This document shows positions 1,312-10,932 of a stretch of DNA of 38,651 bases, one piece after another; the first letter of the stretch is position 1, and each line of letters opens with the position of its first letter. The stretch is taken from the NCBI GenBank assembly GCA_027619545.1, contig JAQCFT010000007.1:1-38651 (forward strand). The letters run 5' to 3'. This DNA comes from Verrucomicrobiota bacterium. GTDB lineage: Bacteria > Verrucomicrobiota > Verrucomicrobiia > Limisphaerales > AAA164-E04. The notes beneath the pieces are model-generated. The model saw only the letters and a program-made list of their open reading frames with translations. It was not told where the DNA came from and ran no database searches. The position numbers and the translations under genes are program-made.

Positions 1312-4014
1312 TCAAAGTTCATTGACTTTAATGCGGAAAAAGGCCTTCTCCTGATCCATGGATTCGAGGTCCACGGACTGTTCGGCTTCCGATGCCGGGA
1401 AGAAAAAGGCATTTTCAGATATATCCAGAGTGTTCCACGAGTCCGGATCTCCCGGAGTTTCCGTCCATTCCACTTCTATATAACGATTGGGCACCCCGGG
1501 AATTTCCATGCTCACCGTTTCACCTGTTACCGTAAAACTGAGTGAGAGATTGTCTTCATCGTCGAGAGGATTGGTTCGCGTCAGAGATTCATAAAGGTTT
1601 GAAAATCCATCTTCATCCGGATCCTCGGTCAAAGCCGCATCCGGATGGTTCAAGTCATCAAAATACTGAGCGGCCCACTCCGGGTAGGTATGGGGTTTGG
1701 AGAGGTCTTCGAGTATCCAACGTTGAATGAGTTCGATGGCGTTGTGGTCCAGTTCGGTGCTGCCCAGTGGAGGCATGCGTTCGATTCCGTTTTGCGCGAT
1801 GCGTTGGAGCAAAATGGATTTGGAGGGATCTGATCGGTGAACCAAACGCGCACCGGTCACGTTCATATCGTTGTACGGCCGGACGTCGATCAATTTCGTT
1901 TCGGCGTTTGAGACGCGTAAGGTGGCGTTCCAGTGAAGTCTGGATTTGCTGGTGAGTCCTTCGTGGCAGGCTTCACAGTTGGCGGCAAGATAAGATCGCA
2001 CCCGGTAATTGAGGCTCGCTTCTTCATTGTCGGCAGTAACCAGCTTTGGGAGGAGTTCGGCCGAAGAAGCAAATGGAGGGATCAGTATCTCGGCCTGGTT
2101 CAAAGCGTCCAGCTGGTTATAGGTTTCCTGTCCGTGTGTCACTTCCCTGTTCAGTTGCGGCGTGTTGAAACCAAGAGCAAATCGACCGTGCCTTCCTTTC
2201 GCCTTGAAGGCCGGGCCGCCATTGTGACAGGCCATGCAGTCATGTCGGCCTGGGTAATGCCATTCCTGATCGCGAAGCTTGCCGTTTTCCTCAATCTGTA
2301 TGGTCTCCTTCCATCCGGTTGGTGGCACCAGTACCGCATCATCCTGAGTTTCGTTCCACCTGTAGGTCAGGCCGTAAAAGCCGCCCAAGGAAGTGATTAC
2401 CAGGAAACGAGTTTCAAGTCGGCGCTTGGTACTCGGATCGCCTCTGCGAAGTTCCAGGTCGAAATGCTTCATGAAAACCGTGCCGGGTGGGAATCCCCAG
2501 GTGTCGTTTTCCCTGAAACTGATCGCTGTTTTCTTGTCGGCAAAACTGATCCATCTGGATTTGATGGCGTAGTCTGACCAAAAAGGAACATTGATCTGGT
2601 AAGGGACAAAGCTCGGATCGATGGTGAACGATGCGGTGTCCCGAAGGGCTCCCGTTTCAGAAAGCAAATTTGGGATATCGTCAAAGTCGTTTTCCTCGGG
2701 TGGGACAAATTGTTTGATGCGGCCTTCGACCATGTCTGCCAGCAGGATATTGTCATCGGCCGGATCAATCGCAATGTCAGCAATGTGATGGTCCAGTGAA
2801 AACCATTCAATCGGTGAAGTGCCGGCATCGGTCAGTTTGACCCGGCCTATCCACCCACCAAAGTAATCCGAAAACAAGATGCAGCCATCCAGGTCTGGAA
2901 ACTTTGTGCCGCGATAAACCGTCATGCCTGCTATGTCGTTTCCGTCCTCCCGGCCATATTCAGCCAACGGATCGAGGAATGAATGATCTCCCGGACTGAT
3001 GGTGTGGTTAGGTGGGCCTTTTAAACTTCCTTCGCGGTGCGGCCAGCCGTAGTTGCCGCCGGCAATGATTTCATTGATTTCTTCACGTGTATGATCGCCG
3101 GTGTCGCCTGAGTAAAGTTTGCCTGTGAGTGGATCAAACGCAAACCGCCATGCGTTTCGCATTCCGATGGCATAGAATTCAGTGCGTAGTTTCTCTGTGT
3201 CCAAGGTTGATCCACCGTATGATTCGATTCCGACAAAGGGATTATCGGCTGGGATGGCATACGCATCCGATGCTGCGGGATGGGGGGAAGGGGGCAGGTT
3301 GCCTTCTCGTTTGTCGACATCAATGCGAAGCATGCCGGCAAAGAAATTTTCGGTTAATTTTTGACCGTTTTCGAAAAGATCATAAAACTGGCCTTCATCA
3401 CCAATGGTCAGATACAGATAACCGTCGGGACCGAACAACATCCCTCCGCCGTTATGATCCACGTGGCGATCGGGTTGATTGATGAGTATTTTTTCTGATT
3501 GCTTCAGCCCCTGACGAATGTTGTTCGGGTCAACATTGAATTCTGACAGACGATTGAAATACTGCCATGCTTCTCCCCTTTTTTCTGTGGCACAGTAGTA
3601 GACAAAAAATCGACCATTGATTTCAAAATTTGGATGAAAGGCCAATGAGAGTAGTCCTGATTCTGAAGAGTTGTAAACGCGGTCGGTGATGTCCAGGAAG
3701 TTTGTTGCTTCGGAGGGTTCGGATTGATCTGTTACAAATTTGATCCGACCGACTTTTTCCACAACGAACAATCCATCTTCGTAACTTGATTGAAAAACAA
3801 CTTGAATCGGTTGGTAGAAACGAAGATTCGGAAAACGATCTTTGGTGGCGTAATTCAACCATTTAGGTACGTCTGGAAACTTGAGCGCGGTATTGGGAAC
3901 AATCTTGTCCCAAGGTGTGGACGCTCCCCATCCCTGAACAGATATGCAAGCCAGCAGCATCAGAGTTGTAATTGGGTGAACGAAGTTGCCGCGTATTAGG
4001 GTGCCCCAAGTCAT
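1312..4014 (-). CDS. Exported PQQ-type sugar dehydrogenase-like propeller fused to a diheme cytochrome module (tandem copy 2)
   Basis: 900 residues from the ATG at 4014. A TTG 12 codons upstream is rejected because the paralogous neighbour aligns from its own MT(V/W)G start. Residues 1-33 form a signal peptide. Residues ~38-440 are a glucose/sorbosone dehydrogenase-type six-bladed propeller (DHNGGGMLFGPDGYLYLTIGD; YSGDTGDHTREEINEI; NYGWPHREG). Residues ~447-770 resemble the SO2930-type diheme cytochrome module: a NVPFWSDYA.KSRWI segment, heme motif CMACH at 593-597 and CEACH at 680-684, then RMPPLGS. The C-terminus (~795-900) has a calcium-loop-like DPDEDGFSNLYES motif and a beta domain. Probable role: periplasmic or surface oxidation of a sugar-like substrate with electrons passed to the hemes; substrate and need for PQQ are unknown. 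Copy 1 lies 49 nt upstream. Confidence 0.8.
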   Translation of the reverse strand: MTWGTLIRGNFVHPITTLMLLACISVQGWGASTPWDKIVPNTALKFPDVPKWLNYATKDRFPNLRFYQPIQVVFQSSYEDGLFVVEKVGRIKFVTDQSEPSEATNFLDITDRVYNSSESGLLSLAFHPNFEINGRFFVYYCATEKRGEAWQYFNRLSEFNVDPNNIRQGLKQSEKILINQPDRHVDHNGGGMLFGPDGYLYLTIGDEGQFYDLFENGQKLTENFFAGMLRIDVDKREGNLPPSPHPAASDAYAIPADNPFVGIESYGGSTLDTEKLRTEFYAIGMRNAWRFAFDPLTGKLYSGDTGDHTREEINEIIAGGNYGWPHREGSLKGPPNHTISPGDHSFLDPLAEYGREDGNDIAGMTVYRGTKFPDLDGCILFSDYFGGWIGRVKLTDAGTSPIEWFSLDHHIADIAIDPADDNILLADMVEGRIKQFVPPEENDFDDIPNLLSETGALRDTASFTIDPSFVPYQINVPFWSDYAIKSRWISFADKKTAISFRENDTWGFPPGTVFMKHFDLELRRGDPSTKRRLETRFLVITSLGGFYGLTYRWNETQDDAVLVPPTGWKETIQIEENGKLRDQEWHYPGRHDCMACHNGGPAFKAKGRHGRFALGFNTPQLNREVTHGQETYNQLDALNQAEILIPPFASSAELLPKLVTADNEEASLNYRVRSYLAANCEACHEGLTSKSRLHWNATLRVSNAETKLIDVRPYNDMNVTGARLVHRSDPSKSILLQRIAQNGIERMPPLGSTELDHNAIELIQRWILEDLSKPHTYPEWAAQYFDDLNHPDAALTEDPDEDGFSNLYESLTRTNPLDDEDNLSLSFTVTGETVSMEIPGVPNRYIEVEWTETPGDPDSWNTLDISENAFFFPASEAEQSVDLESMDQEKAFFRIKVNEL

Positions 4015-4054
4015 GGGAATTACGTTTAAGCAAATGCGGTACGAGTTCAAACCT
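4015..4054 (-). promoter_or_regulatory. Conserved 40-nt leader of tandem copy 2
   Basis: The 40 nt directly before the ATG at 4014 align without gaps to the 40 nt before the ATG at 6766, with 30 of 40 positions identical by hand count. The shared core is TTTGA near the distal end and CTTAA-N-CGTAA just before the start. Neither has a Shine-Dalgarno sequence. Beyond 40 nt the similarity falls away. A promoter or translation-start element kept through the duplication is the likely explanation, but no canonical -35/-10 pair is clear. Confidence 0.45.
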
Positions 4055-4063
4055 TAACTTGCC

Positions 4064-6766
4064 TTATTGACGCACTTTGACCCTGAAAAAAGCTTTGCTC
4101 AGATCCGATTTCTCCAGATCAAGGGTTCTGGGAGCTGACGAAGCCGGAAGGAAAAAGCCGTTTTCCTGCACATTCAGGAATTGCCAGGAACTCGCAATGG
4201 AGGGTGTTTCCGTCCATTCCACCCACGCATACCGGTTGGAAAGTCCGGGAAGTTCCAGACTCAACTTGTTGCCTTCCCGCCTCATCTTCACCGCGTAAAA
4301 ATCTTGAGGGTCCAGAGGATTGGAGAGCGTCAAAGCTTCAAAAAAATTCCAAACCCCATCGCCATCGGGATCTGAAAACAGGAAGGATTCCGGTGATGCA
4401 AGGTCGTCGAAGTAGAGTTGAGCCCAATCTGCATAGGATTGAGGTTTGCCGAGATCTTCGAGAATCCAGCGTTGGATCAAATCGATGGCGGTGTGATCCA
4501 GCTCAGAGCTGCCAAGGGGCGGCATTCGCTCAAGGCCATTGCGGCTGATGCGTTGCAGCAGGATGGATTTGGTGGGATCGGATCGATGGATCAGTCTTCC
4601 CCCGGTGATGCCCAGGTTGTTGTAGGCCGAGTGGTCGATCAGTTTTACCTGATCATTGGCAGCCCGGAAAGTCGCATTCCACGAGAGACGCGCCGTTCCT
4701 GCTATCCCTTCGTGACAGGATTCACAGTTGGCGGCAAGGTAAGATCGGACGCGGTAATAGAGACTGGCTTCTTCATTGTTGGCGTCAACCAGTTTCGGCA
4801 GAAGGCCGACGGGTTTGTCCAATGGAGGGGTGAGAATGCCGGCTCGGTCCATGGCGGCGAGTTGGTTGAATGAGTCTGTTCCGGTGTGTATTTCCTTGTT
4901 CAACTGTGCCGTGCCGAATCCGAGCGCGTAACGGCCAAATCGGGTGGGTGAAAGAAACCCGGGCCCCCCGTTGTGGCAGGTCATGCAGTCGTGACGTCCC
5001 GGATAGTGCCAGGTTTGTTCACGTTCCACGTTTTCTTCACGTATTTGAATCGCCTCTTTGAGTCCGTCTGGAGATATCAGTATCGCGTCGTCTTGTGTTT
5101 CATTCCATTTGTAGGTCAGACCGTAGAAGCCCCCGAACGCGGTGAGAACCAGAAAACGGGTTTCGAGTCGTTTTGCGGTAGCACGATTTCCCCGCTCAAG
5201 TTCGAGGTCAAAGTGTTTCATGAAGACAGTGCCCGGAGGAAAGCCCCAGGTATCTTCTTCGTGATAGTTTATTTTGGCCTCGGAACTCGAAAAGCTGATC
5301 CACCTTGATTTGACGGCATGGTCCGACCAAAAAGGGACATTGATCTGGTAAGGGATGAAGCTTGGGTCGAGCGTGAATGTTTTTGTGTCGAGGAAAGCAC
5401 CCGTTTCGGACAGCAGCGTTGGGATGTCTTCAAAGTTGTTTTCAGAGGGAGGGATAAATTCTTTGATGATCCCTTCCATCATGTCCACCAATAGAATGTT
5501 TCCGTCTGTAGGGTCGATGGTCATGTCGGCGATATGCACATCCCAGGCGAACCACTCTATGGGAGAAGGCTCTTGTTGGTTGATTTTGGTTTTCCCGAGC
5601 CAGCCTCCGTAAAAGTCGGAGAACAGCACACATCCGTCCAACTCGGGGAAAGCAGTGCCTCTGTAAACAGTCATGGCTGCAATATCATTGCCATCCTCCC
5701 TGCCATATTCCGCCATGGGATCAATGAATCCATGATCTCCCTGGTGGATGGCGTGATCGGGTGGTCCCGGCAGGCTGCCTTCCCTGTGTGGCCAACCATA
5801 ATTGCCGCCGGAAACGATCTCATTGATCTCTTCGCGTGTATGGTCACCTGTGTCGCCTGAGTAGAGTTTGCCGGTAAGAGGATCGAAAACGAAGCGCCAT
5901 GGGTTGCGCATTCCGATGGCGTAGAATTCAGTACGCAGTTTGTCCGTTTCCAAATCCTGACCGCGATAGGATTCGATTCCCACGAACGGGTTGTCCGCGG
6001 GGATGGCGTATCCATCCGTCACCGCTGCATGCGGAGCGGGGGGGGGATTGCCCGGTTTCTTGTCCACATCGATTCTCAACATGCCCGCGAACAGGTCGCG
6101 GGTTAGTTTTTGGCCGTGTCCGAAGAAATCATAAAACCTGCCTTCATCCCCGATGCTTAGGTACAAATAGCCGTCCGGACCGAACAACATGCCTCCTCCG
6201 TTGTGGTCGTGATGTCGGTCGGGCAGGTTGATCAATAACTTTTCAGACTCCTTCAATGCCTGACTGGGAAGGTTGGGGTCGACTTTGAATTCTGAGAGTC
6301 GGTTGTAATAAAAGAAGGTTCTGTCGATGTTTTCCCTGGCGGTGTAGAAAACAAAGAAACGGCCGTTTTCGTGAAAGTTTGGATGAAATGCCATCGACAA
6401 CAGGCCCGATTCGGAGAAATTGTAAACGCGATCACGTAAGTCGAGAAAAGGGGTCGATTCGGATTGTTCGCGATGTTGGACTAGGCGGATGATGCCAGGC
6501 TTCTCCACAACAAAGAAACCATCTTCAAACGTTGATTGAAAAACAATCTGAACCGGTTGATCAAAGCTCAGGTTCGGAAAACGATTATGGGTCGCATAGT
6601 TCAGCCACTTTGGTTGGTCCGGTAACTTCAACGCCGTGTTTGGGATAATCTTGTCCCATGGAGTTACCGCGCTCCATGCTGGCATGGAAGCCGTGAGAAA
6701 CGTGAGGGCCAGGAGCATACCGGACAACCGTTCCAAGGTGTGTGGCTTTAAGCAACCAACAGTCAT
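4064..6766 (-). CDS. Exported PQQ-type sugar dehydrogenase-like propeller fused to a diheme cytochrome module (tandem copy 1)
   Basis: Also exactly 900 residues, from the ATG at 6766; the longer reading from 6886 adds 40 residues with no export or domain signal. The signal peptide (~1-34, hydrophobic MLLALTFLTAS, then PAWSA) precedes a TPWDKIIPNTALKLPD segment shared with copy 2. The domain order is the same: glucose/sorbosone-dehydrogenase-like propeller, SO2930-like diheme module with CMTCH and CESCH motifs at about residues 594 and 681, and a C-terminal DPDGDGVWNFFEA calcium-loop-like segment with a beta domain. Identity to copy 2 is high, about 80% by eye across the propeller core, and lower in the signal peptide and C-terminal domain. 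Being first of the two on the minus strand, it may be co-transcribed with copy 2. Substrate unknown. Confidence 0.8.
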   Translation of the reverse strand: MTVGCLKPHTLERLSGMLLALTFLTASMPAWSAVTPWDKIIPNTALKLPDQPKWLNYATHNRFPNLSFDQPVQIVFQSTFEDGFFVVEKPGIIRLVQHREQSESTPFLDLRDRVYNFSESGLLSMAFHPNFHENGRFFVFYTARENIDRTFFYYNRLSEFKVDPNLPSQALKESEKLLINLPDRHHDHNGGGMLFGPDGYLYLSIGDEGRFYDFFGHGQKLTRDLFAGMLRIDVDKKPGNPPPAPHAAVTDGYAIPADNPFVGIESYRGQDLETDKLRTEFYAIGMRNPWRFVFDPLTGKLYSGDTGDHTREEINEIVSGGNYGWPHREGSLPGPPDHAIHQGDHGFIDPMAEYGREDGNDIAAMTVYRGTAFPELDGCVLFSDFYGGWLGKTKINQQEPSPIEWFAWDVHIADMTIDPTDGNILLVDMMEGIIKEFIPPSENNFEDIPTLLSETGAFLDTKTFTLDPSFIPYQINVPFWSDHAVKSRWISFSSSEAKINYHEEDTWGFPPGTVFMKHFDLELERGNRATAKRLETRFLVLTAFGGFYGLTYKWNETQDDAILISPDGLKEAIQIREENVEREQTWHYPGRHDCMTCHNGGPGFLSPTRFGRYALGFGTAQLNKEIHTGTDSFNQLAAMDRAGILTPPLDKPVGLLPKLVDANNEEASLYYRVRSYLAANCESCHEGIAGTARLSWNATFRAANDQVKLIDHSAYNNLGITGGRLIHRSDPTKSILLQRISRNGLERMPPLGSSELDHTAIDLIQRWILEDLGKPQSYADWAQLYFDDLASPESFLFSDPDGDGVWNFFEALTLSNPLDPQDFYAVKMRREGNKLSLELPGLSNRYAWVEWTETPSIASSWQFLNVQENGFFLPASSAPRTLDLEKSDLSKAFFRVKVRQ

Positions 6767-6806
6767 GGCATTTACGGTTAAGGAAATGAAGTGCCAGATC
6801 AAACTT
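6767..6806 (-). promoter_or_regulatory. Conserved 40-nt leader of tandem copy 1
   Basis: This is the counterpart of the leader at 4015-4054 (30/40 identical). It lies inside the 242-nt divergent gap (6767-7008) shared with the secretin operon, so both promoters should be here. The rest of the gap is AT-rich around 6905-6935 but has no clear -35/-10 pair that I could defend. Confidence 0.4.
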
Positions 6807-6998
6807 AAAGTGCTCGAAGATGTGTGAGGCGTGTATGTGATATGATGAATTCGTGCCTTCCTGCATGCAGAAAGTGAATGCCTCATGACTTAGCTGTTGT
6901 ATGCAATTAGGTTGATTGTTTTTAAAATTTATGGCACCATCTGTCCTCTCTAGCGGATTCTACGGCGGGTGAGCCTCCTGGCGAAGAATTCATATCAC

Positions 6999-7003
6999 AG
7001 GAG
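6999..7003 (+). promoter_or_regulatory. Shine-Dalgarno of the secretin gene
   Basis: AGGAG sits 5 nt before the ATG at 7009 and fixes that start. Confidence 0.7.
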
Positions 7004-7008
7004 TCATA

Positions 7009-8823
7009 ATGAGGAGTAAAATCATCTTTTTGTGCATTTTTTTTCATGCACTCGCGGCATGTTGCGGCCTTAAGGCGGAGGATCTATCGCGCCTGGTTCC
7101 CTTGCCTAAAATGAGCGAAGTGGAGTTGTCCGAGCTGGTGGATACTTTGAATCTGCAACTCACACTCGAGCATGGTTACAGAACTGTGGTTGAAGCGGCT
7201 TCGAAAGAAACCTTTCCGCAAGGTTTGACTCATCGGTCAGTGCTGGAAAAGGAAAACCAACGACTGTTTTTTGCCATTAAAGTGTTTCTATCCCGCCCTC
7301 CCATGTTCTGGGTTCACGGAATGATTGAATCCAATGATGCAACAAAAAGGAATCCCGATGTGGATGTCGTTGAGCAAATGATTGCCGATTCCATCCAGTC
7401 CATTCAAACCATGCGTGAAGGGTTGCGTCAGGAGGATTTAAGCTACGAAATTGTTCAGTTGAGTTACATTGATATCAAAGGCTCATTGGAGGCACTCAAG
7501 GGTTTTGGCTTCAATGCGTTGAATTCTGTGGGGGAAATTACCTGGCCCCTTGCGTTCGATCAATTGCCCTTGGTGGCCCCGATGCCCACTCCTTCCAGCG
7601 AACAGACGGCCTTGGTTGGAGGCACTAAAGTCCAGGAAAACAAATCCAACTTCAATGTTTCCGTCAGCCCTCAGATGTCCACGGAGATCCCGAACAACGC
7701 CAATTCGGCCAGGTCCGACCAACTGCTGGTTTACTACCATGCGGCGCATCCTGATCAGTGGGGGCGTTTGCGTGACGTGCTCAAGCATCATATCGATCAA
7801 CCTGCCATCCAGATTTTTGTGGAAGGCTTGGTGTTGGAAATCAGTGAGGAAGGGCTCAAGGATCTTGGGATTGATTGGGCATTTCAGGAGGGGAAGTTCA
7901 ATGTGGCCGGAGGTGACCTTGCTCCAGGTGTGAATGCTGCGGAAACCCTGGGGTTTACCTTTGACAGCGCACAGGATTTGGCCAAGGAATGGCAGGCGAG
8001 GGTGCGGGCTTTGATCGAAGATGGTAAGGCGGAAATTCTGTCACGCCCCAGTGTGCTGACCCTGAACAACCGACAAGCAACCATTCGCGTGGGGACCGAC
8101 ATTCCGATCGCCACTTCGCAGGAAGGGGTTGCCGACAATTCGAACAAGATTGCTTTTCAATTCAATTATCTGCCAACAGGTATCTCGCTGAATGTTCGCC
8201 CGCGCGTTGCCGAATCAAAGCGAGAGGTCAGCATGATGGTGGATACCATTGTATCCTCCCCCATTCCAGGTGCGGACCTTGAACTGAAGGCAAGAACAGG
8301 TGAAATACTTGCCGCCGCCCCCACAGTGGCCACGCGTCGTGTTCAGACCTATGCCCGCATCGAGAACAACACGCCTTTTATTATCGGCGGTCTGGTCACG
8401 CGCGACCAGGTTACTCAACGCCGACGGGTGCCTTTGCTGAGTTCCACTCCTTATCTCGGTAAACTGTTTCGTTCCTCGCGCGTGACCTCGTCCAAACGGG
8501 AGGTGATCATTGTTCTGACCCCACACGTGCTGGCTGATCGCTTGTCCGAAGAGGCATTGGGCAGGTTTCTGCCAAAGGATGAGGATCGTTTTGACCAGTT
8601 CTCCAATGCTCTGTTTCGTGATGCCTATCGCATAAGAGCCGAAGATGTTTTTGACCTGTCCTTTCTGGAACAAAATGAAGCCCTTGGTGAATGGCGTTCA
8701 CGGGTGCGGCGTTGGGCTGTGGAGAATCCGACCCTCACCCTGCGATATCCATTCAACCAATTCATTGATGAACGCATCGCCGGTGAAGATGTATTGGTAC
8801 ATCGCAGATTTATGAAGTCCTGA
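7009..8823 (+). CDS. Secretin (type II/III secretion outer-membrane channel family), possible liposecretin
   Basis: 604 residues. The N-terminus carries a signal peptide with a lipobox-like LAAC (15-18), so Cys18 could be lipidated; cleavage after LKA (21-23) is the alternative. A ring-building segment (YEIVQLSYIDIKGSLEAL, ~145-162) and the segment QPAIQIFVEGLVLEISEEGLKDLGIDW (~264-290) match N3/secretin junctions. The secretin core has the hallmark EILSRPSVLTLNNRQATIRVG starting at residue 342 and ends with FIIGGLV, VPLLSSTPYLGKLF and REVIIVLTPHVL near residue 508. A ~95-residue C-terminal extension follows. Secretins form gated outer-membrane rings for secretion or pili. No ATPase, pseudopilin or inner-membrane platform gene is in the window. 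It starts an operon with the next two genes (29-nt and 4-nt gaps). Confidence 0.88.
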   Translation: MRSKIIFLCIFFHALAACCGLKAEDLSRLVPLPKMSEVELSELVDTLNLQLTLEHGYRTVVEAASKETFPQGLTHRSVLEKENQRLFFAIKVFLSRPPMFWVHGMIESNDATKRNPDVDVVEQMIADSIQSIQTMREGLRQEDLSYEIVQLSYIDIKGSLEALKGFGFNALNSVGEITWPLAFDQLPLVAPMPTPSSEQTALVGGTKVQENKSNFNVSVSPQMSTEIPNNANSARSDQLLVYYHAAHPDQWGRLRDVLKHHIDQPAIQIFVEGLVLEISEEGLKDLGIDWAFQEGKFNVAGGDLAPGVNAAETLGFTFDSAQDLAKEWQARVRALIEDGKAEILSRPSVLTLNNRQATIRVGTDIPIATSQEGVADNSNKIAFQFNYLPTGISLNVRPRVAESKREVSMMVDTIVSSPIPGADLELKARTGEILAAAPTVATRRVQTYARIENNTPFIIGGLVTRDQVTQRRRVPLLSSTPYLGKLFRSSRVTSSKREVIIVLTPHVLADRLSEEALGRFLPKDEDRFDQFSNALFRDAYRIRAEDVFDLSFLEQNEALGEWRSRVRRWAVENPTLTLRYPFNQFIDERIAGEDVLVHRRFMKS

Positions 8824-8838
8824 AACGGTTGTCCGGTC

Positions 8839-8844
8839 AGGAGG
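8839..8844 (+). promoter_or_regulatory. Shine-Dalgarno deciding the start of the 204-residue ORF
   Basis: A full AGGAGG lies 8 nt before the ATG at 8853. It excludes the TTG at 8829, which lies upstream of it. Confidence 0.7.
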
Positions 8845-8852
8845 CGGATTGG

Positions 8853-9467
8853 ATGGATCAGCGAGTGGGATTGGGGCGTATCATTTATTTCGCCGGTCAA
8901 CGGGATGGCGGGTATGATGTGAAGTTTTTGTCAGACGCGCTGGAATTGGATCTTTCAGGGGATGGACAAGCCCTCAATGGCTGGTTTGAATCGCATCCCA
9001 AGCAGGCACTTGTGTTTCAGTATGTCGATACGGATTCGGTCTCGGTGACCTCCACCCTCAATGAATCTGCGATTCCGCAGATTCAAGTCATTGAGTGTCC
9101 AGACGAGGACTCCTGGGGGAAAATTCTGTGGGAATACAATCAGCCTGATGATCAAGGGCGTCCTCGTTCTGCCATCGTGTTGCATCATCCGGATGATTTG
9201 GAGCGTCTGAGAAAGGCGGTGCTCCTTAAAGAAGTCATCGGATTGAACGGCGGAACGTCGCAGATCAATCTGAACAAATTCCGTTATGGAAAAGTGTTGC
9301 TCATTCCTGATCCGAATCCCCAGGAGACCCATTTGATTGACCGTGAAGTGGCCACATACTTTTTCCATAGTGAGCATTATTACGCCGCCGCCTTGAATCA
9401 ACTGGACCGCGCCATGGCGGATCTTGAGAAAGCATCGGCCCAGCTGCAATTCAACGAGGAGGATTGA
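8853..9467 (+). CDS. Hypothetical protein between secretin and MscS-type channel
   Basis: 204 residues, not recognised. No signal peptide or membrane helix is visible, so it is probably cytoplasmic. The sequence is acidic and mixed alpha/beta, with a segment VLHHPDDLERLRKAVLLKEVIGLNGG (~113-138) and a C-terminal amphipathic helix (EHYYAAALNQLDRAMADLEKASAQL, ~177-201) that could mediate oligomerisation. The start is fixed by AGGAGG at 8839-8844. It sits 29 nt after the secretin and 4 nt before the channel gene, so it is almost certainly co-expressed and may couple or regulate the two; that role is inference only. Confidence 0.7.
   Translation: MDQRVGLGRIIYFAGQRDGGYDVKFLSDALELDLSGDGQALNGWFESHPKQALVFQYVDTDSVSVTSTLNESAIPQIQVIECPDEDSWGKILWEYNQPDDQGRPRSAIVLHHPDDLERLRKAVLLKEVIGLNGGTSQINLNKFRYGKVLLIPDPNPQETHLIDREVATYFFHSEHYYAAALNQLDRAMADLEKASAQLQFNEED
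9457..9462 (+). promoter_or_regulatory. Shine-Dalgarno deciding the start of the MscS-cNBD gene
   Basis: AGGAGG inside the end of the preceding gene, 9 nt before the ATG at 9472. It rejects the longer reading from 9424. Confidence 0.7.
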
Positions 9468-9471
9468 TCTC

Positions 9472-10932
9472 ATGTGGGTGGATGCTTTGAAAAAGTTGCT
9501 GTGGCCCATCGCGATCCTGACCCTGCTGCTGCTGCCGGGGTGGGAGATCATCGACAGATGGGATCAACAGGCCACCGACGCGCTGGAACGTGTGCTGAAA
9601 TGGGGTTTCGGGACGGGGGTTGGTTTTGCATTGGCCTGGCTGGTGGTGAGATTGGTGGATGTTTTCGTGTGGACCTTGCTCGAGAAGCGTCTTTCCTCAC
9701 CTGTTCCCAGACTGCTCAAGGATCTTTTTGCCGGCATCATCTTTTTGATGGCGGCCATGACCATTGCGAGTTTGGTGTTCGGTCAATCTGTGGCGGGCAT
9801 CTGGGCCACTTCGGGGGTGATGGGGATTGTTGTGGGTTTCGCCTTGCGCAATATGATAGCAGACGTTTTTTCGGGTATCGCCCTGAACATTGATCAGCCT
9901 TTCAAGATAGGGGAATGGGTTGAATTGCATCCCCGCAGCGTGGAGCCCATGCGTGGGCGTGTTGTTGAAATCAGTTGGCGATCCACCCGGATTCAGAAAA
10001 ACGACAACACCACCATTGCTATTCCCAACAGCATGATCAGCAGCATCGTGATGGTGAATCTGAGCCGGCCCGAACCCAAAAGTCGTTTTGATCATTCGTT
10101 TTGTCTGGAGTTTGGGATTCCGACCGAACGTGCGCTGCGTGTGTTGAGCGCAGGTGTGTGTGCTGCGAAGGGCGTGTTGAAAGATCCCAAACCGAAAGCG
10201 ATGGTGGATTCCGTGACCTCCAATGGAGTGGAATATAAAGTGCGATACTGGCTCGATCCTGTCCAGACATCACCCCGTAAGGGCAGACATGCAGTGACTC
10301 GAAGCGTATTGGAGCACATGCACCATGCTGGACTCAGTCTGGCCTACCCCAAACAGGACCTTTACCTGGCACGCATGCCGCATCGACAATTGGATCGTCA
10401 ACACGACCGTGAAGCCATCCTGCAGAGGGTGGAGCTTTTTGGTTCCTTTCAGTCGGAGGAGTTCCGATTGCTCTCAGAACATGTGACGGAGCACACCTGC
10501 AAAGCGGGTGATTCGGTGGTGGTCAAAGGGCAGCAAGGTTCCTCGATGTTTCTGGTGGTCGAGGGCTTGCTGGATGTCTGCACCGAATCCGAAATGGACG
10601 GTCAGGTTGTCCACGTGTCTGAAATCGGGCCGGGGGATTATTTTGGCGAAATGTGTCTGCTTACCGGAGCGGAACGTTCCGCAACGGTCATGGCTGCCAC
10701 TGATACAGTGTTGTTCGAGATCGACAAACCAGCGATGGAAGAAATTCTGACACGTCGGCCAGATGTGGCCAGGCATCTTGCCGAGACGGCAGCCATACGC
10801 AAGAAACACCTGATGGAGGCAGGCCGTTTGCCGCGAGAAGAAGTCGAACAAACACAGGAGAGTGTCAAAGATTACATCCTGAAGCGAATGGGACACGTTT
10901 TTAAATCACTGAAAAACGCTTTTCTGATGTGA
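9472..10932 (+). CDS. MscS-family channel with C-terminal cyclic-nucleotide-binding domain (bCNG type)
   Basis: 486 residues. Hydrophobic segments lie at ~9-22, 44-66 and 82-103, followed by the glycine/alanine-rich MscS pore helix and beta-domain entry (GVMGIVVGFALRNMIADVFSGIALNIDQPFKIGEWVEL, 115-152) and the MscS beta domain (VVEISWRSTRIQ; IAIPNSMI). A cNMP-binding domain occupies ~318-437, with its phosphate-binding cassette at 387-408: Phe391-Gly392-Glu393 and Arg402-Ser-Ala are in canonical positions, so cAMP or cGMP binding is plausible. Such fusions are known as bCNG channels, several of which respond weakly or not at all to membrane tension. It acts in the inner membrane. The tight link to a secretin is unusual. 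Confidence 0.92.
   Translation: MWVDALKKLLWPIAILTLLLLPGWEIIDRWDQQATDALERVLKWGFGTGVGFALAWLVVRLVDVFVWTLLEKRLSSPVPRLLKDLFAGIIFLMAAMTIASLVFGQSVAGIWATSGVMGIVVGFALRNMIADVFSGIALNIDQPFKIGEWVELHPRSVEPMRGRVVEISWRSTRIQKNDNTTIAIPNSMISSIVMVNLSRPEPKSRFDHSFCLEFGIPTERALRVLSAGVCAAKGVLKDPKPKAMVDSVTSNGVEYKVRYWLDPVQTSPRKGRHAVTRSVLEHMHHAGLSLAYPKQDLYLARMPHRQLDRQHDREAILQRVELFGSFQSEEFRLLSEHVTEHTCKAGDSVVVKGQQGSSMFLVVEGLLDVCTESEMDGQVVHVSEIGPGDYFGEMCLLTGAERSATVMAATDTVLFEIDKPAMEEILTRRPDVARHLAETAAIRKKHLMEAGRLPREEVEQTQESVKDYILKRMGHVFKSLKNAFLM

Follow-up and report, generated by a model that had tools for sequence, protein, structure and literature searches.

A secretin family of Planctomycetota, Verrucomicrobiota and Kiritimatiellota encoded beside or in frame with inner-membrane transport proteins

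The 38,651 nt stretch analysed here (the window; positions 1 to 38,651 of the forward strand of contig JAQCFT010000007.1, from the Verrucomicrobiota bacterium assembly GCA_027619545.1) contains a locus at 7009–10932 in which a gene for an outer-membrane secretin is followed by one for an MscS channel with a C-terminal cyclic-nucleotide-binding domain (cNBD). The secretin belongs to a family in which an inner-membrane transport protein is encoded beside the secretin, or in frame with it, at 79 of 85 loci. We see about an even chance that the two proteins of the window act as one trans-envelope unit, with the secretin as the outlet for an interchangeable inner-membrane transporter. The wider proposal stands equally in the balance, namely that the family defines an undescribed class of trans-envelope system of Planctomycetes–Verrucomicrobia–Chlamydiae (PVC) bacteria, in which a secretin with a helix-grip-like N-terminal domain and a new kind of C-terminal domain plays the TolC-like part and is coupled to ATP-binding cassette (ABC), MscS (with or without cNBD) or TLC-type transporters.

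The secretin family and its transporter partners

Relatives of the secretin were sought in one genome per species (GTDB r220), and the best 80 of 139 were analysed. Together with loci from the same order as the source genome these gave 82 proteins, 81 of which are in the tree, and three loci on short contigs with recognizable partners bring the set to 85. Partners were called by running channel, cNBD and ABC exporter profiles over all frames of each locus, followed by classification. An MscS channel with a cNBD is present at 25 of the 85 loci, downstream of the secretin in 13 (the window included) and upstream in 12, and an MscS channel without a cNBD is present at five (eight with L079, L092 and L096). 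An MsbA-like ABC exporter is the partner at 44 loci, as a separate gene just upstream of the secretin in 18 and in the same reading frame in 26. In two others, a TLC-transporter/HEAT protein is followed by a small cNBD protein. Where the secretin and its partner are separate genes, they mostly range from overlapping slightly to lying tens of nucleotides apart, with larger gaps (up to 247 nt) at a few of the MscS-only loci; genes farther out are mostly not conserved between families. An earlier sequence-only reading of the window had linked the secretin to the MscS/cNBD channel and suggested checking whether the gene order is conserved in relatives. The link is conserved, with the pair being kept and the order flipped in one clade, and it extends more widely than that reading had supposed.

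Among the best 80 of 139, the family is confined to Planctomycetota, Verrucomicrobiota and Kiritimatiellota with the exception of two records, one labelled Acidobacteriota and one simply ‘bacterium’; the Acidobacteriota-labelled record groups with a planctomycete. We note that two taxonomic labels look wrong. The secretin of L070, labelled Vicinamibacteraceae, is very near that of the planctomycete L065, and the secretin of L062, labelled Akkermansia muciniphila, is very near that of the Pedosphaera record L063.

The link goes beyond simple co-inheritance. On the secretin tree the ABC and MscS partner labels require three changes, versus 25 when they are shuffled. Pairing with an MscS-cNBD channel occurs on two separate branches, and a single clade for these secretins is rejected (approximately unbiased test, p = 8e-33); the paired channels themselves form one kin group, and a single channel clade is not rejected (p = 0.076). 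A third secretin clade is paired with MscS channels that have no cNBD. Re-pairing of the secretin with MscS on separate branches would be best explained by a functional need. Within the order of the source genome, 13 of 146 genomes have both a close channel and the secretin, five have the secretin only and one the channel only (Fisher p = 9e-14, uncorrected for phylogeny), so that MscS/cNBD channels are found in 13 of 18 genomes with the family secretin and a channel of comparable score in just one of the 128 without it. A close channel (E ≤ about 1e-79) lies beside a family secretin in 13 of the 14 same-order genomes that have one, the exception being L139:5901–7874 (genome G137), which has no family secretin nearby. 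These patterns argue strongly for functional linkage between the secretin and its transporter.

At 26 of the ABC loci, exporter and secretin share one uninterrupted frame. Two such genes are on complete chromosomes (L115, CP066225.1; L128, CP087563.1), and Pfam recognizes ABC_membrane, ABC_tran and Secretin domains within a single frame (L065, L113 and L128). The best NCBIfam matches of the exporters are to exporters of the MsbA-like and type I secretion kinds, under every cut-off shown. A Walker A motif was found by simple pattern search in 40 of the 44 ABC cases, and ATP use is therefore likely. The in-frame genes encode a hydrophobic signal-like stretch between the nucleotide-binding domain and the secretin, often with a lipobox, and the secretin part can thus reach the periplasm. 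In some Phycisphaerales, MacB/FtsX-like permease genes are situated just upstream of the in-frame ABC-secretin gene (L113:2–1885; similarly in L103, L104 and L110).

Several loci encode additional proteins of note. In one planctomycete clade, a single protein with an NMT1/TAXI-type binding domain, an Ion_trans_2 pore and an RCK domain is encoded a few genes from the secretin and MscS (L074:7020–9212, L094:4281–6476, L082:768–2996, L087:664–2895, L099:494–2719 and L079:2678–4891), and this potassium-channel-like neighbour hints at ions or osmolytes as the cargo. In family f2, a 1522-residue protein with a BamB-like propeller, a TLC ATP/ADP-transporter region and HEAT repeats (L048:1542–6548; also in L049) is followed within a few nucleotides by a 145-residue cNBD protein, both ahead of the secretin. 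In the clade with the channel upstream, a Sel1/TPR-repeat protein is encoded after the secretin (L117:4860–6293 and L045:10544–11956, with relatives in L123, L132, L134 and L135) and may be a third component there.

The secretin and channel genes of the window

As assembled, the locus contains three open reading frames (ORFs) on the plus strand, of 604 codons (7009–8823, to a premature stop), 204 codons (8853–9467) and 486 codons (9472–10932), separated by 29 and 4 nt. Each of the three ATGs is preceded by a Shine-Dalgarno-like motif (AGGAG at 6999–7003, GGAGG at 8840–8844 and GAGGAGG at 9456–9462). The sequence-only reading had taken these to be a three-gene operon, and one idea it offered was that the 204-residue product couples secretin and channel. 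The ORFs, gaps and ribosome-binding motifs stand, but the three ORFs are not three independent genes. When the 204-residue sequence was used as a query against the 146 same-order genomes it identified, apart from the genome of the window, 17 relatives whose frames span 720–1600 residues, and tblastn with the three window proteins, together with frame translations, showed that the secretin and the 204-residue part share one reading frame at these 17 loci. In the two most distant of these the 204-residue part falls under the tblastn cut-off, and there the secretin frame continues and aligns across it. In the 16 relatives found first, as in those from the later, wider scan, this part belongs to the secretin itself. 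In the window, a profile built from the secretin end together with this region matches twice in two different frames (model positions 1–97 at 8515–8808 and 95–310 at 8799–9452), and the 204-residue frame has no stop ahead of its supposed start at 8853, where it reads IYEVLKRLSGQEADWMDQRV, like the MIYEVIKRLS... of the relatives. Together, these observations indicate one secretin gene whose reading frame changes by one base within 8799–8823 and is thereby split, with the motif and ATG at 8840–8855 lying inside a conserved coding stretch. The 204 residues are the C-terminal domain of the secretin, the separate coupler is rejected, and the locus is a real operon of two genes, not three. The frame change is possibly an assembly error in this 515-contig draft or a real mutation, and the high sequence conservation downstream of it suggests that gene decay, if any, is recent.

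The first part of the secretin gene (7009–8823) encodes the N-terminal domains and the secretin domain. It begins with a putative signal peptide (7009–7062) that has a lipobox-like LAAC and a candidate lipidated Cys18; a signal-like sequence precedes the secretin elsewhere in the family, including inside the ABC-secretin frames. A helix-grip-like N-terminal domain follows (approximately 7081–7443; the position is from alignment, the fold from the model of the relative L059). The secretin domain, comprising the outer-membrane gate and barrel, is at 8008–8532 (residues 334–508; PF00263, E = 3e-38), and the C-terminal region extends through 8533–9467 and includes the 204-residue ORF. Neither PF21305 (N0) nor PF03958 (Secretin_N) matches the window secretin at E 0.5. 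It is also below the curated cut-offs of TIGR02517, TIGR02515, TIGR02516, TIGR02519 and NF042912, which include the GspD, PilQ, SctC and MshL profiles; it scores 167 bits against a cut-off of 351 for GspD (TIGR02517), 115 against 284 for PilQ (TIGR02515), and 44 against 750 for Amuc_1098 (NF042912), the last over the final secretin strands.

The AlphaFold2 model of L059 (801 residues, pLDDT 75.7) has a helix-grip-like N-terminal domain (residues 1–120), N-type domains, a secretin core (126–501) and a C-terminal region. The core aligns to pIV, InvG and GspD with Z of about 12, and a Foldseek match to PulD (E = 5e-16) confirms it. Residues 1–120 give moderate scores with the BamC N-domain (Z 7.7) and KICSTOR (Z 8.5). 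The likeness of this domain to BamC (Foldseek E about 0.01; VIA-align Z 7–8, tied with unrelated helix-grip proteins) was read as a common arrangement, and kinship was rejected. Sequence searches with the 204-residue part against Pfam, NCBIfam and the PDB gave nothing significant. Its AlphaFold2 model is confident (pLDDT 86.9, pTM 0.80) and has no PDB match by Foldseek with E < 0.9, and a second look with VIA-align gave only Z 2.0–2.8, which is no proof of a new fold.

The channel (9472–10932) combines an MscS beta-domain (PF00924, residues 127–199) with a cNMP_binding domain (PF00027, residues 342–428) in one protein. The latter has a phosphate-cassette-like motif, YFGEMCLLTGAERSA, and keeps the Gly-Glu and Arg-Ser typical of ligand-binding domains, so that the channel may respond to a cyclic nucleotide. 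Some channels of the ‘upstream’ clade do not have the conserved phosphate-cassette glutamate, and cyclic-nucleotide control is therefore not general. The cNBD was also rejected as a constant element of these loci, being absent from one MscS clade and from all of the ABC loci.

The tested genes of the window include none identified as a secretion ATPase, a pseudopilin or a platform protein, in line with the sequence-only reading. Upstream of the secretin, on the minus strand (1312–6886), are two tandem paralogous genes of the glucose/sorbosone dehydrogenase type with cytochrome-c-like regions.

Proposed mechanism and alternatives

In the proposed mechanism, the secretin would form a pore in the outer membrane, equipped at both its N- and C-terminal ends with periplasmic domains, and would dock onto or align with the inner-membrane transporter, probably through these non-standard domains. 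The transporter would vary by lineage. In many planctomycetes it would be an ATP-driven MsbA-like exporter, often made in the same frame as the secretin, and in the Verrucomicrobiota version represented by the window an MscS channel that opens in response to membrane tension, to a cyclic nucleotide at its cytoplasmic cNBD, or to both. The window version would thereby let small solutes or osmolytes leave the cytoplasm for the outside in a controlled way. Physical coupling, direction, cargo and gating ligand are all features that we infer. The sequence-only reading had suggested a two-membrane conduit gated by a second messenger; the conduit fits with the 26 in-frame ABC-secretin loci, with coupling presumed, whereas gating by a second messenger does not hold as a general property, given the clade with MscS but no cNBD, the many loci with ABC exporters, and the loss of the glutamate in some ‘upstream’ members.

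Several points weigh against a two-protein unit. Six of the family loci have no visible partner, at least three of these being at contig ends, and the secretin gene of the source genome is broken as assembled. The product of an in-frame ABC-secretin gene need not be one mature protein, since signal peptidase may cleave it at the internal signal or translation may begin anew. Moreover, MscS heptamers normally lack selectivity and open into the periplasm, so that there is no need for a sealed conduit.

In a less likely alternative, export proceeds in two steps, with the transporter releasing cargo to the periplasm and a co-expressed secretin passing it to the outside, and no stable complex being formed. 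MscS needs no periplasmic docking partner, and because the partners are structurally unrelated transporters, swapping them would be easier if there were no specific interface. However, the single frame for exporter and secretin at 26 loci suggests fixed stoichiometry or proximity, and the N- and C-terminal domains peculiar to the family are kept whatever the partner type. MscS could also be a protective partner, easing the osmotic or membrane stress that arises when the secretin is expressed or mis-inserted in the inner membrane. Mis-inserted secretin does stress the inner membrane in enterobacteria, and channel and secretin are co-transcribed judging by their layout, but this explanation seems quite unlikely, since the partner at 44 loci is an ABC exporter, which is no safety valve, and in the stretches examined, neither MscS nor cNBD genes adjoin the other secretins of the source genome.

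Two further explanations concern the window secretin itself. If the split is real and functional, re-initiation at 8853 would yield a separate C-terminal protein and a genuine three-gene operon. There is a good ribosome-binding motif and ATG directly after the stop, and both the downstream domain and the channel are still conserved in sequence; nonetheless we consider this unlikely, as relatives keep a single frame, the second frame already shows the conserved sequence ahead of the ATG at 8853, and a one-base error is possible in a draft of 515 contigs. It is very improbable that a type II secretion or type IV pilus machine with genes elsewhere in the genome uses this secretin as its outlet, with the channel a chance neighbour. 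The source genome has six secretin domains including that of the window, and there are T2SSE/T2SSF clusters on contigs C17 and C90 with no secretin on the same contig. However, contigs C273 and C51 each have a secretin together with a T2SSE ATPase, and C139 and C407 encode GspD-like secretins with N0 domains, which are candidates for serving the C17 and C90 clusters; another secretin is at the edge of contig C343. The check that the sequence-only reading had proposed, for a secretion or pilus locus lacking a secretin, thus found such genes to have either their own secretins or N0-bearing candidates. Furthermore, the family secretin follows ABC and MscS genes across three phyla, and that of the window matches neither N0 nor the standard Secretin_N. 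The annotated neighbours of the relatives include one weak N_methyl match (L064:8559–9494) and no secretion ATPase or platform protein. We note that on C407 the N0/Secretin_N and secretin domains are divided between two genes (L053:1045–2568 and 2–997); a second frameshift was considered here and rejected, since translation shows them to be distinct genes and a signal-like sequence is present at the second as well.

If this widespread secretin family does act as the outlet for these transporters, it would extend the known uses of secretins and show that ABC exporters can have an outer-membrane exit other than TolC. PVC bacteria, in which transport across the envelope is poorly understood, would have an export system open to testing. 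A related question is whether an MscS channel can release solutes straight to the outside. The main claim is testable because one of the in-frame ABC-secretin genes (CP066225.1) is in a cultured strain, Poriferisphaera heterotrophicis ZRK32 (described in PMC10945688).

Comparison with known systems

Secretins are known from type II and type III secretion, type IV pili and filamentous phage export, and bacterial cyclic-nucleotide-gated (bCNG) channels have, to our knowledge, been described as stand-alone proteins. The sequence-only reading knew of no described system that links the two, and this agrees with the open-licence literature, in which we found no system joining a secretin with ABC transporters or with MscS/bCNG channels, in Planctomycetes and Verrucomicrobia included. 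A survey of type IV filaments mentions neither Planctomycetes nor ABC transporters (PMC6668835), and the part of a Chem Rev survey of tripartite and type I secretion systems that was available does not mention such use of a secretin (PMC8277102).

The window secretin shares the PF00263 domain with GspD, PilQ, SctC and pIV, and the core of the L059 model aligns to pIV, InvG, GspD and PulD. The family differs from these in having a helix-grip-like N-terminal domain and no match to N0 or the standard Secretin_N, in its conserved C-terminal region of ~300 residues, the last 200 without a PDB match, and in that no pilus or secretion ATPase genes were identified near it. The Amuc_1098-type secretin of type IV pili (NF042912) is likewise a Verrucomicrobiota secretin, and there is a weak match at the last secretin strands, but the window secretin is far under the cut-off for that family and no pilus genes were identified near it. 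The window channel resembles the bCNG type in having an MscS pore and a C-terminal cNBD with a phosphate-cassette-like motif, and differs in that channels of its kind adjoin a family secretin (in 13 of the 14 same-order genomes that have a close channel).

There would also be a functional parallel with type I secretion and tripartite ABC efflux, which the coupling of an ATP-driven, MsbA/HlyB-like exporter to a pore in the outer membrane would resemble. No TolC-type factor or HlyD-type adaptor was found among the annotated neighbours, to which this search was confined, no genome-wide search having been made. The systems described here differ in that the outer-membrane part is a secretin, adjacent to or in frame with the exporter, and the window itself differs further, as its partner is MscS and not the ABC exporter of the 44 related loci. 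The component families are known; the combination, and above all the ABC-secretin genes, appears to be new as a kind of system, with a function predicted from genomic evidence.

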